DNA from: Candidatus Moraniibacteriota bacterium
GTDB lineage: Bacteria > Patescibacteriota > Minisyncoccia > Moranbacterales > GWC2-37-73
NCBI GenBank assembly: GCA_013336225.1
Contig: JAAXUC010000010.1
Span: 1 to 37,725 of the forward strand
Direction: 5' to 3'
Length of the DNA: 37,725 nt
Below are positions 31,138 to 37,725 of this stretch, piece after piece; position 1 is the stretch's first letter, and every line of letters begins with the position of its first letter. The translations under genes and the position numbers were made by a program. The notes below the pieces were generated by a model. The model was not told where the DNA came from. It was given only the letters and a program-made list of their open reading frames with translations, and searched no databases.

Positions 31138-32592
31138 ATGGTACGCGAAGATATTTTACAGACCAAATTGGAAAAACTTGAGAAAATCAGAGAGTTTGGC
31201 ATGGATCCATATCCGGAAAAATCAGAGCGCGAAATGAAAAATTCCGAGGCTTTGGAAAAGTTCGCTGAATTGGGAGATAAGAAAATCACCTTGGTTGGAC
31301 GTGTGCGTTCAATGCGGCCAATGGGTGGCAGTGCTTTTGCCAACATTGAAGATGAATCAGGCAAGATGCAACTTTTTCTGAATAAGGGAAACATGGCTGA
31401 GGAATTGTTCAAACTTTTCACGAAGAATGTTGAGTTGGGAGATTTTGTGCAAGTGACTGGAGAATTGTTTGTGACCAAGACCGAAGAAAAATCTCTGAAA
31501 GTTGTTGATTGGAAAATGCTTTCCAAAAACATTCGTCCAATTCCAACGGAGCATTTTGGAATCAAAGATGAAGAGGAACTTTTAAGAAAAAGATATTTGG
31601 ATTTGATGACCAATCCTGAAACGCGCGATCTTTTCCGCAAGAAAAACATCTTCTGGCAAACTGTGCGAATGTTTTTGGCTAAGGATGGATTTTTGGAGGT
31701 GCAAAACCCAGTGTTTGAGCACACTCCAGGAGGAGCTGATGCTGAGCCATTTGTCACGCATCACAATGCACTTGATCAAGATTTCTACATGCGAATTTCT
31801 TTGGAGCTGGCCTTGAAAAGATTGTTGGTGGGCGGCTATGAAAAAGTTTTTGAAATAGGACGTGTTTTTCGCAATGAGGGAATTGATCGTCATCATTTGC
31901 AAGAATTTGATCACATGGAATTTTATGCAGCATATTGGGATTTGCAAAAGGGAATTGAATTTTCTGAAAATATGTACAAAGAAATTGTGAAGAATGTGAC
32001 TGGCGGAATGACCACTGAATATGAAGGCGCAACAATTGATTGGTCACAAAAATTTCCAATCGTGGATTATTTTGATGCTTTCAAAAAGGAAACTGGCATT
32101 GATTTGTCTGGCGAAGTGAGTGTGGCTGATTTAATGAAAAAAGCGGATGAACTCGGAATCAAATATGAAAAAACTTATGGCAAAGGGCGCATGATCGACA
32201 CGGTGTATAAAAAAACAGTGAGACTTAAAATGATTCAGCCATGTTTCTTGGTTGGTCATCCAATTGAGGTTTCACCTTTGGCTAAAAAAGATCCCACCAA
32301 TCCCGCCAAGGTTTTGCGCTTTCAGCTTGTAGCTGGCACAGCAGAGCTTTGCAATGCTTTTGCTGAGCTCAATGATCCAATTGATCAGAAAGCTCGCTTT
32401 GAAGATCAGATGAAGCTGCGTGAAGCTGGCGACGCCGAAGCACAAATGATTGACGAAGACTTCTTGGAAGCTCTTGAATATGGCATGCCAAACGCCTTTG
32501 GCTTCGGAATGAGTGAACGCTTCTTTGCCTTCTTGATGAACAAATCAGTCCGCGAATGTGTGATTTTCCCAGGGATGAAATCTAAAGAATAG
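31138..32592 (+). CDS. lysS: Lysyl-tRNA synthetase, class II
   Basis: A 484-aa enzyme that charges tRNA-Lys. The N-terminal OB-fold anticodon-binding domain (KITLVGRVRSMRPMGGSAFANIEDESGKMQLFLN) is followed by the class II core: motif 1 region (FLEVQNPVFEHTPGGADAEPF), motif 2 (EIGRVFRNEGIDRHHLQEFDHMEFY) and motif 3 near the end. Motif 3 reads GFGMSERFFAFLM, with Ser-Glu-Arg where GIDR is usual; the key Arg is kept. The start at 31138 (MVREDILQTKLEKLEKIREFGMDPYP) is chosen over a longer in-frame upstream extension because the extension is encoded by the TTCAAA word repeat. Translation signals are weak. Confidence 0.94.
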   Translation: MVREDILQTKLEKLEKIREFGMDPYPEKSEREMKNSEALEKFAELGDKKITLVGRVRSMRPMGGSAFANIEDESGKMQLFLNKGNMAEELFKLFTKNVELGDFVQVTGELFVTKTEEKSLKVVDWKMLSKNIRPIPTEHFGIKDEEELLRKRYLDLMTNPETRDLFRKKNIFWQTVRMFLAKDGFLEVQNPVFEHTPGGADAEPFVTHHNALDQDFYMRISLELALKRLLVGGYEKVFEIGRVFRNEGIDRHHLQEFDHMEFYAAYWDLQKGIEFSENMYKEIVKNVTGGMTTEYEGATIDWSQKFPIVDYFDAFKKETGIDLSGEVSVADLMKKADELGIKYEKTYGKGRMIDTVYKKTVRLKMIQPCFLVGHPIEVSPLAKKDPTNPAKVLRFQLVAGTAELCNAFAELNDPIDQKARFEDQMKLREAGDAEAQMIDEDFLEALEYGMPNAFGFGMSERFFAFLMNKSVRECVIFPGMKSKE

Positions 32593-32623
32593 GAAAGTTT
32601 ATAAGGTTTATAAAATAAAAGCT

Positions 32624-32977
32624 ATGGGCATTGTAGTTGAATTTAATCCGGACTTGGCACTGCGTGACATTTCTGAATTCAAAGCTGGAAGAAGAAAAAT
32701 ACAAGAGTGTATTCCTGAGAATCTTGAAGAAGGTGGAATTTATGATTTTTTAAAAAAAGACCAAAGAAATTATTGGCTTTTTGGAGAAATTCCACTTATT
32801 GAAACAAGAGGAAATTCAATTCTTTCGAGACCAAAGGCAAGTATTATTATTCTGGAAGCCACTCACTTTTTGGAAAATGGGGAGATGTATACAAAAGGAA
32901 AATATAAAGTAATTAAAGTCTTGGGGGAGGATATTTATTTTGAATATCTTGATCCAATCAGGAAAAGAGATTTTTAA
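32624..32977 (+). CDS. Hypothetical protein, paralogue 1 (MGIVVEFNPDLALRDI family)
   Basis: A 117-aa protein of unknown function. It begins MGIVVEFNPDLALRDISEF, then KAGRRKIQECIPENLEEG, IYDFLKKDQRNYWLFGEIPLIET, and ASIIILEATHFLENGEMYTKGKYKVIKV. It is about 60% identical by eye to the gene at 34221, with the same length and near-perfect identity in the first 25 residues. The predicted fold is mostly beta with one basic helix. No signal peptide. It ends four bases before the PIG-V gene. Confidence 0.75.
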   Translation: MGIVVEFNPDLALRDISEFKAGRRKIQECIPENLEEGGIYDFLKKDQRNYWLFGEIPLIETRGNSILSRPKASIIILEATHFLENGEMYTKGKYKVIKVLGEDIYFEYLDPIRKRDF

Positions 32978-32981
32978 AAAT

Positions 32982-34094
32982 ATGAAAAGAATATTACTCA
33001 TCGTTTTGACTTGGTTGTTCATTGTTAATCTGTTTGGTTTTGTGGCGCTGAATCGTTTCAATCTGACACCCGACACGTCTTACACTTGGATCATGCCGGA
33101 AAGTTTCCCAGTAGCCAAGGATTCGGGACTGGTCGATATGCACAATCGCTGGGACACTTTTTGGTATCTGGACATCGTCAATAATGGATATCATCTAAAT
33201 TCCAACAACACTTTGGCCAACGTGGTTTTCTTTCCGCTCTATCCAACCTTGATAAAAATTCTTGGCACAATTTTGCTGGGCAATTTCGTGTTAGCTGGCT
33301 GGATTTTGAGCATGACATTCTTGATGCTGTCTTGCGCATATTTCTATAAATTCGTGAAGGAGTTTCATCCCGATGTTGATCCAGAATTGCCGATTTTGCT
33401 GATGCTGATTTTCCCAACTGCCTTTTTCTTTAATGTTGTGTATACTGAATCAATTTTTCTTTTTCTGACCATTGCGACTTTCTATTATGCATTTCGCAAA
33501 AATTTTTATTTGGCAGGTTTGCTGGCCTTTTTGGGAGCGCTGGCGCACAGCAATGGAGTTTTTTTGGCCCTGCCAATTCTCTGGAAGATTGTTGAGCTTA
33601 GAGGCTTTCAAAATATGTTGGCTCTAAAGATGTGGAAACATTTAACTCCGGTTTTCTTTGCTCCAATCGGTTCGTTTTTATTTCTCGGATATGATTGGTG
33701 GAAATTTGGCGATCCCATGTTGTTTTTCAAGATCCAAAGTGCTTGGGGGAGATCGTTCACAATCAACTGGGAGCATTTTTCTTTTTTCTCACATCCTTCC
33801 ATTGCCAACATGAGCATTGATATTTTCTTGGCCGTCTTCATTATCTCGGCCGTCGTGGTGGTGTATCGAAAACTTTCGCCACTCTATGCAATTTTCATGT
33901 CGACGACATTGATTGCAGCTTTCACCTCTGGAACTTTGATGAGCGTTGGACGCTACAGCTTGGTGATGTTTCCACTTTTCATTTTGCTGGCCAAGATTAA
34001 AAACAAACTTGTTTTGCAGGCTTGGATTTTGCTTTCAACTTTGTTTTTTGCGCTCGACATCATTTTGTGGGTCAATAATTATTGGGCAGGCTAG
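32982..34094 (+). CDS. PIG-V-like mannosyltransferase, multi-pass membrane protein
   Basis: A 370-aa integral membrane glycosyltransferase of the GT-C kind. The first span (RILLIVLTWLFIVNLFGFVAL) is followed by an outer loop with HNRWDTFWYLDIVNNGYHL and FFPLYPTLIKIL, the WDxxWYxxIxxxGY plus FFPLYP signature of PIG-V-type enzymes; the acidic WD is the expected catalytic residue. About eight further spans follow. The family transfers mannose from a polyprenyl-phosphate donor to a lipid- or protein-linked acceptor outside the membrane. ATG 32982 is preferred to an earlier in-frame start overlapping the upstream gene. It is sandwiched between two paralogous small genes. Confidence 0.88.
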   Translation: MKRILLIVLTWLFIVNLFGFVALNRFNLTPDTSYTWIMPESFPVAKDSGLVDMHNRWDTFWYLDIVNNGYHLNSNNTLANVVFFPLYPTLIKILGTILLGNFVLAGWILSMTFLMLSCAYFYKFVKEFHPDVDPELPILLMLIFPTAFFFNVVYTESIFLFLTIATFYYAFRKNFYLAGLLAFLGALAHSNGVFLALPILWKIVELRGFQNMLALKMWKHLTPVFFAPIGSFLFLGYDWWKFGDPMLFFKIQSAWGRSFTINWEHFSFFSHPSIANMSIDIFLAVFIISAVVVVYRKLSPLYAIFMSTTLIAAFTSGTLMSVGRYSLVMFPLFILLAKIKNKLVLQAWILLSTLFFALDIILWVNNYWAG

Positions 34095-34097
34095 GGC

Positions 34098-34212
34098 AGC
34101 TTTCTAGGCATTAGCTTTTAGCTTCCTAGGAAAATGCAAAAATAAAAAATAATAAACTTTAGACATTAACTTTTAACTCTTTTAAAAAGCTAAAAAGCTA
34201 ATGCCTAATAAG
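34098..34212. repeat. Inverted AGCTAATGCC word repeat
   Basis: The left arm at 34098-34124 is the reverse complement of the right arm at about 34185-34212 apart from one indel and two mismatches. The core AGCTAATGCCTA also occurs upstream of rplL (7675-7711). The arms could form a long hairpin after the PIG-V gene. Confidence 0.65.
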
Positions 34213-34220
34213 CTAATTCT

Positions 34221-34571
34221 ATGGGTATTGCAGTTGAATTTAATCCCGATTTGGCACTGCGTGACATTTCAGAATTCAAAGCTGGAAGAAGAAAAGTTGA
34301 AGAATGTATTCCAGAGAAATTGGAAGTTGGAAAAGTGTATGATTTTTTCAAAAAAGAACAAAGAATTTATTATTTGCTCGGCGAAGTTTCCTTGATTGAA
34401 ACCACCACGACTGGTGGAAGTTTTTCCAAGGCGCGAGCCAATGTGAACATTTTGGAAGTGACGCATTTTCTTGAAGATGGCATTGTTTGCACCAAGGGAA
34501 AATATCAAGTGGTTGAAATTTGTGAAGTTGATCAAGACGCTGCTTTTGAAAAATGCAGCATGGCTAAATAG
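34221..34571 (+). CDS. Hypothetical protein, paralogue 2 (MGIAVEFNPDLALRDI family)
   Basis: A 116-aa paralogue of the gene at 32624, with the same start MGIAVEFNPDLALRDISEF and KAGRRKVEECIPEKLEVG, VYDFFKKEQRIYYLLGEVSLIET, VNILEVTHFLEDGIVCTKGKYQVVEI. It diverges only in the last 15 residues. Function unknown. It is followed after two bases by the cytidylyltransferase gene, suggesting co-transcription. Upstream lies the inverted AGCTAATGCC repeat. Confidence 0.75.
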   Translation: MGIAVEFNPDLALRDISEFKAGRRKVEECIPEKLEVGKVYDFFKKEQRIYYLLGEVSLIETTTTGGSFSKARANVNILEVTHFLEDGIVCTKGKYQVVEICEVDQDAAFEKCSMAK

Positions 34572-34984: not shown

Positions 34985-35028
34985 CATGAACTTGAAATAT
35001 TTTTTTCACAGGCGTGTAATAATTAGCA

Positions 35029-35168
35029 TGGTCCGTAGCTCAGAGGTAGAGCGACTATCGGGGTGATGCGGAAAGGCTTTGGTTGATAATCCTTTGAAAG
35101 GAGTTTCGTCAATCATTACTCTCTCTGTCTGATAGCATGGCACGCTAGTTCGAATCTAGCCGGACCGT
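35029..35168 (+). tRNA. tRNA-like gene with an oversized anticodon side (unassigned)
   Basis: The outer parts are a good tRNA: acceptor TGGTCCG (35029-35035) with CGGACCG (35161-35167), T8 A9, D arm GCTC-AGAGGTA-GAGC (35038-35052), T arm GCTAG-TTCGAAT-CTAGC (35144-35160). Instead of a 17-nt anticodon arm plus a variable loop of about 5 nt, there are about 90 nt between the D and T arms. These fold: CTATCGGG (35055-35062) with TCTGATAG (35128-35135); GTGATG (35064-35069) with CATTAC; GGTTGA (35081-35086) with TCAATC; TCCTT-TGA-AAGGA. No anticodon with T33 and a paired 5-bp stem can be assigned. It could be an intron-containing or damaged tRNA, or a tRNA-like regulatory RNA. CCA is not encoded. 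A terminator follows directly. Confidence 0.55.
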
Positions 35169-35173
35169 CAAGT

Positions 35174-35201
35174 AAAAAACATTTCAGTAGAAATGTTTTT
35201 T
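35174..35201. terminator. Bidirectional terminator
   Basis: AAAAAACATTTC-AGTA-GAAATGTTTTTT, six bases after the tRNA-like gene and upstream of the convergent HD-domain gene's stop. Confidence 0.9.
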
Positions 35202-35223
35202 GTATTTCCGGCTATATTTAGGT

Positions 35224-36549
35224 TTAGGCTGCAAGATGCCCATCTTTCTTTTCATCTGGCAAGTTGTCAGAAAGAAATTCGTCAATAAATAGAATTTCTT
35301 CATGGCTTTTTTGCAAAAAAGCATGATGTTGAAATTTGGATTGCATGTTGCGAATTTCATCTAAATATTTGGGATGTTGCAAACCTATGATTTTGATTTC
35401 ATCGTCAACCCATTCGGCGGTTAGCGCTGGATCAATTTTTCCAATTTTTGCATCATCAATGAGGAATGTCATGATGCGCAATATTGGTTGTTTGCTGTGA
35501 TAGGAGCGATTTTCATTGAGCGCATGTTGAACATCGGCAAGATGAATTATGCTCGAAGCAATTTCCGTGCTTATGTGCAGCGTTGACAATGCGACTGGCT
35601 TTTCTCCTAGTTTTTCGCTTTTATGCTTGTAATTGTGGTGATTTCCTGCAAGAAAAGCTTCCAGCGCATAGCCAAGTTTCTTGAGGATTTCTTCAGAAAA
35701 ACCTTCATGTGTTTGCATGATTTCACCTAATGATTTTTCAGGATCAAAATTTTGTTTTTTTAGTGATTCTATTTGTTCGGGGGATAGAATTATTTTTATG
35801 GGAAAATATTTTTCAGGTCGCAGCTTGTTGGTAGAAAAAAATTCCAACATCTTGTCTGAATCTTCTCTGATGCTATCTGGCACGATTATTTTGTTTTCAA
35901 CCAAAATTTCATCTTTCTCATCTTGATCATCAATCATCATGAAACAATTGATCCAATCTTTGTCTGTTGCCTTGTTGTTAAAGATGAAGCTTGGAATGCC
36001 AAGTTTCCCAATATCATGAAAAAGACAGGCGCGATATAATTGTTCCAGCTGAACACCTTCGTGCGCAAGTTCACCTCCAAGCTTGATCAATCTTTTCTCT
36101 ATTTTATTCTTGGCGATAAGATATGTTCCAATGGAATGTTCAAAAGTTTTTTTGTCGCAAAGTTCAACGGCAGCCAACACTTTCCAATCTTTTTCAGTGA
36201 GAAATGTTGCTGTGGACAGTTCTGTTTCATATGCCTGTTTGATTCTCGCAATTTCATTTTCAAAAACTGGGCTCGCAGTTTCATTTCCAAGAAATTCTGT
36301 GATTGCTTCCAAATTTCCAGACTTGAAAACAGCTAGCTCCTTTTTCTTTTCAAAAGTTTGTCTTATTTTTGAGTTTTCTCGAACAAGAAGATTTTGTCCA
36401 AAGTTGATCACATGTTGTTTGTCAAACGGACGCGATTGTTGTGGGAAATGTTTTTCTTCTTGTTTGGTCTCAATAGAGCAGTCTTCACTCGAGTGAATTT
36501 CTTTTGGAATGATGTGATTATTGAGATGTCTTTCGAAATTTAGTGGCAT
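35224..36549 (-). CDS. HD-domain protein (phosphohydrolase-like)
   Basis: A 441-aa cytoplasmic protein. The central region has YRACLFHDIGKLGIPSFIFNN, the His-Asp metal pair of HD superfamily phosphohydrolases, and downstream QTHEGFSEEILKKLGY, FLAGNHHNYKHK and IIHLADVQHALNENRSYH, in the order found in HD-GYP-like domains (although the GYP triplet itself is not seen). The first 130 residues are charged and probably helical, without a recognised sensor domain. The expected chemistry is metal-dependent hydrolysis of a phosphoester or nucleotide, and the substrate is unknown. The gene stands alone between two terminators and promoters facing other ways. Confidence 0.85.
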   Translation of the reverse strand: MPLNFERHLNNHIIPKEIHSSEDCSIETKQEEKHFPQQSRPFDKQHVINFGQNLLVRENSKIRQTFEKKKELAVFKSGNLEAITEFLGNETASPVFENEIARIKQAYETELSTATFLTEKDWKVLAAVELCDKKTFEHSIGTYLIAKNKIEKRLIKLGGELAHEGVQLEQLYRACLFHDIGKLGIPSFIFNNKATDKDWINCFMMIDDQDEKDEILVENKIIVPDSIREDSDKMLEFFSTNKLRPEKYFPIKIILSPEQIESLKKQNFDPEKSLGEIMQTHEGFSEEILKKLGYALEAFLAGNHHNYKHKSEKLGEKPVALSTLHISTEIASSIIHLADVQHALNENRSYHSKQPILRIMTFLIDDAKIGKIDPALTAEWVDDEIKIIGLQHPKYLDEIRNMQSKFQHHAFLQKSHEEILFIDEFLSDNLPDEKKDGHLAA

Positions 36550-36692: not shown

Positions 36693-37725
36693 ATGTTGGA
36701 TATAAAATTTATCAAAGAACATCGTGAGGAAGTTGCAGATGCAATTCTTCGAAAGAACATTGATTTGGATTTGGAGCATCTGTTGGCAGTGGACAAGGAG
36801 CGCGTCAGCTTGCTGCAGGAAGTTGAGCAATTGTTGGCACTTAAAAATGATTTGAATGACATCATTAAATCTGCAGCAGATGACAATGAGCGCAAAGAGG
36901 TCATTGAAAAAGGCAAGGAAATCAAAGCTAAGATTGAAATCAAAGACCCACAATATAAAAAAATCAAAGAAGAATTTGATGATTTGATGGTGAAAGTTCC
37001 AAACATCATTTCAAAAGACACTCCCACTGGAAAGTCGGATGAGGACAATATTGAAGTTGATAGAAATGGGGAAATTCCCAAATTTGATTTCCAAATCAAA
37101 GATCATGTGCAGCTTGGAAAAGATTTGGACATTTTGGATTTGGAAAAAGGCACCAAGGTCGCTGGTTTTCGTGGATATTATGTGAAAAATGAAGGCGCAT
37201 CACTCATGATGGCGCTGATGATGTATGCGATGAATAAACTGGTTGAAAAAGGATATGCGCCCATGATTCCTCCGACACTTGTGAAAGGCTCTGCACTTTT
37301 TGGCACGGGATATTTCAAAGGAACGGAATATGACAGTGCGGTGGATGAGGTGTATGAAGTTGCTTCTGGCGATAAAGAAGCTGATGGGAAAGCGAGCAAA
37401 GAAAAGAAATTTTTGGTTGGAACTGCGGAACCATCATTGCTTGCATATTATGCTGATGAAGTTTTAAAAGAGGAGCAATTGCCAATCAAGATCGTGGGAT
37501 ATTCGCAGTGCTATCGCTCAGAAATTGGATCATATGGAAAAGACACCAAGGGATTCTATCGCGTGCATGAGTTTATGAAAGTTGAGCAGGTTGTGCTTAT
37601 GGCAGCTGATGAAGAAGCTTCAATCAAAATGCACGATGACATGCTGGAAATTTCCAAAGAAGTGCACGCTGAACTCGGACTTCCATATCGCGTGCTCAAA
37701 ATTTGCTCTGGCGACATGAGCGCTG
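36693..37725 (+). CDS. serS: Seryl-tRNA synthetase, N-terminal part (runs off the window)
   Basis: Class II synthetase that charges tRNA-Ser (and tRNA-Sec). The frame is open from the ATG to the end of the window (344 codons). The N-terminal start MLDIKFIKEHREEVADAI leads into the long antiparallel coiled coil that grips the tRNA variable arm (about 25-110). The catalytic part shows GFRGYYVKNEGASLMMAL, YAPMIPPTLVKGSALFGTGYF and motif 2 CYRSEIGSYGKDTKGFYRVHEFMKVEQ. A short Lys/Glu/Asp-rich insertion (SGDKEADGKASKEKK) precedes FLVGTAEPSLL, which differs from the usual LIPTAEVPL. Motif 3 lies beyond the window. Confidence 0.95.
   Translation, partial: MLDIKFIKEHREEVADAILRKNIDLDLEHLLAVDKERVSLLQEVEQLLALKNDLNDIIKSAADDNERKEVIEKGKEIKAKIEIKDPQYKKIKEEFDDLMVKVPNIISKDTPTGKSDEDNIEVDRNGEIPKFDFQIKDHVQLGKDLDILDLEKGTKVAGFRGYYVKNEGASLMMALMMYAMNKLVEKGYAPMIPPTLVKGSALFGTGYFKGTEYDSAVDEVYEVASGDKEADGKASKEKKFLVGTAEPSLLAYYADEVLKEEQLPIKIVGYSQCYRSEIGSYGKDTKGFYRVHEFMKVEQVVLMAADEEASIKMHDDMLEISKEVHAELGLPYRVLKICSGDMSA

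Follow-up and report, generated by a model that had tools for sequence, protein, structure and literature searches.

The genome of a Candidatus Moraniibacteriota bacterium carries a tRNA-like gene in which a structured arm occupies the place of the anticodon arm, raising the question of what an RNA of this kind is for. The window, that is, the whole stretch of 37,725 nucleotides that was analysed, corresponds to contig C8 in a genome of 1.11 Mb. To our knowledge, small RNAs have seldom been described in CPR bacteria, and a literature search covering mostly openly readable papers has returned no description of this one. The evidence presented below points to a probable answer, a small RNA specific to one family, which does not decode and has a tRNA as its scaffold. 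With slightly less assurance, it may be regarded as an undescribed class of CPR small RNA, where a tRNA that has left decoding serves as scaffold and a conserved, trans-acting binding arm has taken over from the anticodon arm. The RNA itself is composed of the following elements, paired cells being those of the alignment described further on:

35028-35171, plus strand: whole tRNA-like RNA, from A-1 to the bases CAA at the CCA position, 144 nt in total (Rfam tRNA match, homologues, covariation).
35029-35035, plus strand: 5' strand of the acceptor stem, UGGUCCG, pairing with 35161-35167; A35028 can pair with U35168.
35036-35052, plus strand: U8, A9 and D arm (GCUC/GAGC, loop with GG), 98.1% of cells paired.
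35055-35135, plus strand: replacement arm, a hairpin of ~80 nt with closing stem CTATC (35055-35059)/GATAG (35131-35135) and 71 nt between (covariation).
35061-35067, plus strand: near-invariant unpaired GGGTGAT, a lopsided internal loop facing CT (35129-35130) (conservation).
35069-35076, plus strand: 5' strand of the middle helix, pairing with 35120-35127; 86.5% of cells paired, five pairs with double changes.
35080-35086, plus strand: 5' strand of the outer helix, pairing with 35109-35115; 89% of cells paired, three pairs with double changes.
35087-35108, plus strand: variable apical part capping the outer helix.
35144-35160, plus strand: T arm, GCTAG-TTCGAAT-CTAGC, 100% of cells paired, with double changes.
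35161-35171, plus strand: 3' strand of the acceptor stem, U73 and CAA, with CCA in its stead in four relatives.

Homologues have been found in several genera of one bacterial family (Ca. Moranbacteria); no full homologue has been detected outside it, so that the RNA is possibly confined to this family, though relatives may be missed. BLAST recovers the 140 nt at 75-86% identity in G010 and in each of the remaining five genomes of the genus, and a covariance model adds full-length copies in genera g7 (G011, G014, G015, G016, G018) and g4 (G008), as well as a copy in G012 with a damaged 5' half. This amounts to 13 full-length homologues, the window included, with G012 taken as partial. A model of the insert only (R3) finds the arm once per genome and in the family only, except for two weak matches without tRNA parts, which indicates that the arm is not a dispersed repeat. 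A search of 84,980 species genomes with an IUPAC pattern of the arm returned nine contigs belonging to this group, along with one match outside it (L120, Eubacteriaceae), rejected as a chance match lacking tRNA parts; viral contigs gave no match to the pattern. Among the matches listed in 131 genomes of the order and 384 of the class (models R1 and R2; the best 8-24 candidates scored per genome, with ordinary tRNAs competing for places), there is no full-length copy, only ordinary 76-nt tRNAs. G006, G007, G009 and G017 lack the RNA at the syntenic locus, showing that the family can do without it. In G015 (D arm) and G012 (5' half) tRNA features have decayed and the arm has been retained, which hints that the arm may matter more than the tRNA features; decay of the whole gene in these two is another possible reading.

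The body of the RNA is clearly that of a tRNA. The Rfam tRNA model, when searched against the short stretch, matches 35029-35168 with 33.9 bits, against a gathering score of 29 bits, and places a 73-nt insertion in the anticodon loop; neither ARAGORN without introns nor an Rfam scan of the whole window calls the tRNA-like. This alignment bears out the canonical acceptor stem, U8/A9, D arm and T arm described in an earlier note on this DNA. U8/A9, the D loop and the T loop are tRNA-like in 12 of the 13 homologues, G18 and G19 are likewise present in 12 and lost in G015, and the acceptor helix (eight pairs including -1:73) is paired in 95.2% of cells over the 13 sequences, with double changes in five pairs. 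By alignment, the closest among the genome's own tRNAs is an elongator-type Met tRNA, which is also the ordinary tRNA matched in relatives. The RNA would have originated from a duplicated tRNA gene, most like elongator tRNA-Met, that exchanged its anticodon arm for a conserved, kinked hairpin of ~80 nt. The tRNA-like loops are compatible, too, with a function depending on a genuine tRNA (charging, EF-Tu), and it is conceivable, if unlikely, that the RNA is a dedicated amino-acid donor, a charged tRNA-like barred from the ribosome and serving cell-wall, lipid or other side pathways. Selection on the elbow and acceptor stem speaks for such a donor, as does the fact that G013 and four g1/g6 homologues encode their CCA end. 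Nonetheless, the 1:72 pair and base 73 vary by genus (U-G/U, C-G/U, A-U/A or G), so one conserved aminoacylation identity is not kept; G3-U70, which would signify alanine, occurs only in G010, every other homologue having G3-C70; and charging does not need a conserved 80-nt arm.

Concerning codon reading, the same genome has been found to encode 39 other, ordinary tRNAs, whose isoacceptors cover all amino acids, with TTG and CTG both present for Gln. Taken together with a separate tmRNA, this complete set makes the RNA surplus to decoding and, given that its anticodon arm has been replaced by a conserved hairpin, a job other than codon reading is probable. A decoding tRNA with a short anticodon-loop intron of a new kind, removed by an unknown mechanism, is a doubtful alternative, at roughly one chance in ten. 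The insert lies where tRNA introns do, in 12 of 14 homologues ARAGORN, when introns are allowed, reports a tRNA interrupted by one of 59-68 nt, and longer introns, probably of group I, split tRNA-Phe in relatives; however, the anticodon called by ARAGORN jumps by species (Asp, Asn, Lys, Thr, Glu), and among 24 possible 7-nt loops (all splits, three stem registers) none combines U33 in all 13 species with one amino acid. The genome's own tRNA set, already complete, also argues against it. Group I introns in tRNA genes similarly sit in the anticodon loop, but the insert here is ~70 nt, leaves no recoverable anticodon and has no Rfam intron match at gathering score or E<=10, in agreement with the earlier note, which had dismissed a group I intron. 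The bulge-helix-bulge of archaeal-type introns was not seen on inspection of the alignment, the internal loop being 7-10 nt rather than 2-3 nt. A spliced tRNA-Gln(CTG), which the same note had offered as an alternative, is contradicted by the loss of that loop in other genera, by the presence of ordinary Gln(TTG) and Gln(CTG) tRNAs and by the lack of a splice geometry fitting 13 species; no clean spliceable intron leaving a normal anticodon arm was found. Membership in tmRNA has been rejected as well, since a separate tmRNA lies on contig C21, only tRNA was matched in Rfam at 35029-35168, a tag ORF is nowhere apparent and homologues fail to keep G3-U70. Insert lengths across homologues (64, 65, 68, 69, 70, 71 and 73 nt) are not frame-keeping. 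A lookalike of RNase P was discarded, the genome's RNase P having its own locus. In practical annotation, a standard tRNA caller overlooks the RNA when run without introns and, once introns are allowed, would give it a false Asp, Asn, Lys, Thr or Glu label, so tRNA counts in CPR genomes should be read with caution.

The surroundings of the RNA within the window comprise these features:

31138-32592, plus strand: lysS, class II lysyl-tRNA synthetase (Pfam PF00152; synteny), the conserved upstream neighbour.
34992-35022, plus strand: promoter-like element, TTGAAA (34992-34997) and TAATAA (35017-35022), ending 5 nt before the first base of the RNA.
35174-35206, plus strand: intrinsic-terminator-like hairpin AAAAAACATTTC-AGTA-GAAATGTTTTTT, a 12-nt perfect inverted repeat that could act on both strands.
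35224-36549, minus strand: gene for an HD-domain protein (Pfam PF01966), a convergent neighbour in part of the family.
36693-37725, plus strand: serS, seryl-tRNA synthetase (Pfam PF02403, PF00587), the conserved downstream neighbour, which runs off the window.

The promoter-like element has been identified by conservation rather than by consensus, and a generic scan, using the plain sigma-70 consensus for the promoter, scored neither this element nor the hairpin. The boxes occur at the same distance upstream in the other genomes, except for the partial G012 copy; all full-length homologues have TGAAA and TGTAnnA in nearly the same register, the second box being TAGTAT or TAATAT in most homologues. 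As this box ends ~5 bases before the RNA, the transcript is expected to start at or beside the mature 5' end. A similar hairpin is found in the same place in most homologues, with a T-run after it. The fixed-distance element and this hairpin appear to mark a single-gene unit, in which the RNA would be transcribed alone from its own promoter and stop at the hairpin with its T-run.

The arrangement lysS-RNA-serS is found in genera g1, g4, g6 and g8, and in g7 a folC-like gene adjoins the RNA and serS lies elsewhere. In E. coli, thrS is controlled through a tRNA-like operator, a precedent for a cis-acting leader, and a tRNA-mimic leader controlling serS (or lysS) would suit both a locus placed between these genes in most genomes and the distance of only 120-130 nt to serS in G003 and G008. 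This explanation is nevertheless improbable, considering that the RNA ends in its own terminator-like hairpin, that in other genomes the convergent HD gene stands between it and serS and that g7 keeps the RNA with serS elsewhere. The interval between lysS and the RNA (window 32600-34570) varies in gene content by genome and constitutes a gene-gain hotspot beside the tRNA-like, holding ASCH-like, nucleoside-deoxyribosyltransferase-like, cytidylyltransferase and small unknown proteins, two of which, both unknown, are similar to each other (32624-32977 and 34221-34571).

Selection on the structure has been assessed by aligning 13 sequences with plain MAFFT (A6) and scoring 37 pairs derived from the window sequence. 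Standard pairs occupy 93.6% of pair cells and double changes occur in 19 of the 37 pairs, distributed over the acceptor, D and T stems, the stem at the anticodon position and the two outer helices of the arm. Neither figure is attained in any of 500 shuffles, though the sequences are related and the count is not tree-corrected, so that independent events are fewer than this comparison suggests. Shifting the partner by one to three columns lowers pairing to 27-47%, and compensated changes are seen within g1 and also between genera. The structure is under selection, with the tRNA body and the new arm both contributing. Homologues thus carry a conserved, covarying insert, rather than the normal tRNA with random insert by which a pseudogene could have been recognized. 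A decaying tRNA pseudogene that captured a hairpin, to which the absence or damage of the RNA in several genera might be ascribed, is therefore very improbable in view of the compensated changes in every helix, the conserved bulge, promoter-like boxes and terminator across several genera and the lack of other arm copies in the genome, covariation refuting it for g1 and most of g7 and leaving at most G012 and perhaps G015.

Conservation and covarying pairs also bear out the claim of the earlier note that a structured arm replaces the anticodon arm, with a revised internal architecture. The closing stem CTATC/GATAG changes to TTCTC/GAGAA in genus g7, with 98.5% of cells paired. These are the outer five pairs of an 8-bp helix previously proposed (35055-35062/35128-35135), and they are supported across genera; its inner three bases are instead part of the bulge region. 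The bulge reads GGGTGAY in 11 of the 13 aligned sequences and in the partial G012 copy, with the variants GGGTGGT (G002) and GGGTATA (G008). Beyond it, CGGAAAGG (35069-35076) pairs with TCTCTCTG (35120-35127) with one mismatch, in place of a previously suggested GTGATG/CATTAC helix whose pairing homologues do not keep; the GGTTGA/TCAATC helix suggested alongside is real and covaries. Folding of the window sequence alone gives z = -1.0, and the structure would not have emerged from single-sequence folding by itself. A 3-bp pseudoknot candidate beside the closing stem, TGC/GCA, shows one covarying change only (G010, G012). A K-turn or C/D-box reading of GTGATG...CTGA was rejected by inspection, since the required stem overlaps CTATC/GATAG and the motif is lost in G008. 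GGGTGAY could also pair with the 3' end of 16S (AUCACCU) in many species, but this reading is unsupported, the last base of the motif varying between T and C and the match being broken in G002 and G008. In the family-specific small RNA favoured here, the arm would be the working part, with the GGGUGAY bulge and its flanking helices probably serving as a trans binding site for a protein or another RNA. The acceptor, D-T elbow and T arm that make up the tRNA body would probably allow tRNA enzymes to trim the 3' end and add CCA, and would probably protect the RNA from nucleases.

By analogy, the closest functional counterparts of such an RNA would be the tRNAOther of Bacillus cereus and the tRNA-like half of tmRNA. 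The tRNA-like domain of tmRNA joins an acceptor and T arm to a long helix in place of the anticodon arm, a likeness that had been remarked from the sequence and that the present results support. Unlike tmRNA, the RNA described here has an intact D stem, does not keep G3-U70, measures 144 nt, has neither tag ORF nor pseudoknots and coexists with a separate tmRNA. YrlA and other bacterial Y RNAs are also non-decoding and combine a tRNA-like module with a protein-binding stem; membership among them was rejected, as their partner Ro60 (TROVE, PF05731) is absent from all 19 family genomes searched. The tRNAOther of B. cereus is a tRNA-shaped RNA outside translation, proposed to be a regulatory RNA on a tRNA framework (PMC3399842), but it retains a Trp anticodon, has no replaced arm and belongs to an unrelated host. 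In the laboratory tRNA scaffold, the acceptor, D and T arms are retained and the anticodon stem-loop is turned into a hairpin insert, and the product accumulates in E. coli (PMC3753655). That scaffold is artificial, whereas the RNA in Ca. Moranbacteria is natural and conserved: a tRNA with its anticodon arm swapped for another conserved arm is the very design that laboratories use for expressing foreign RNAs. It offers a clear test case of how tRNA genes turn into other RNAs.

Additional tRNA-like elements have been observed in the same group. In G013, where the order is rdgB-like-RNA-polX-HD-serS, a 140-nt tRNA-like that has diverged strongly and encodes its CCA (L172:637-776, G013:C23) lies upstream of serS, accompanied by promoter-like boxes (TTGACA/TACCAT) and a hairpin resembling a terminator; its fold, at best three hairpins in the insert, beats all 200 shuffles (z = -4.4), and it is treated as a positional relative rather than a proven homologue. 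In its sister G006 that place holds no tRNA-like; ~90 nt with a poor fold and no tRNA likeness lie there, flanked by promoter-like sequence and by a strong hairpin resembling a terminator (L170:2130-2250, G006:C1). A different tRNA-like, with ~55-76 nt in the anticodon loop and a covarying stem (TGTG/CACA, TGCG/CGCA), is near-identical in two species (minus strand, L098:1379-1529 in G003:C18 and L099:1576-1726 in G005:C5). In both species another tRNA follows it, Leu-like in G003 and Gln in G005. This tRNA-like also adjoins a tyrosine-recombinase-like ORF in G003 and perhaps belongs to an integrative element. The interrupted anticodon loops of tRNA-Phe(GAA) are found in L153 (G007:C16:83087-83222) and L018 (G017:C47), with group I-like introns, 255 nt long in G017. 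Finally, part of the T arm recurs as an inverted copy beyond the terminator, both in the window (35153-35164/35207-35218, 12 nt at 92%) and in relatives (L110:4905-4921/4971-4987, 17 nt at 100%; L107:4088-4101/4151-4164, 14 nt at 93%), and this copy tracks each species' own T-arm changes, as if through template-switching correction or maintenance by pairing.
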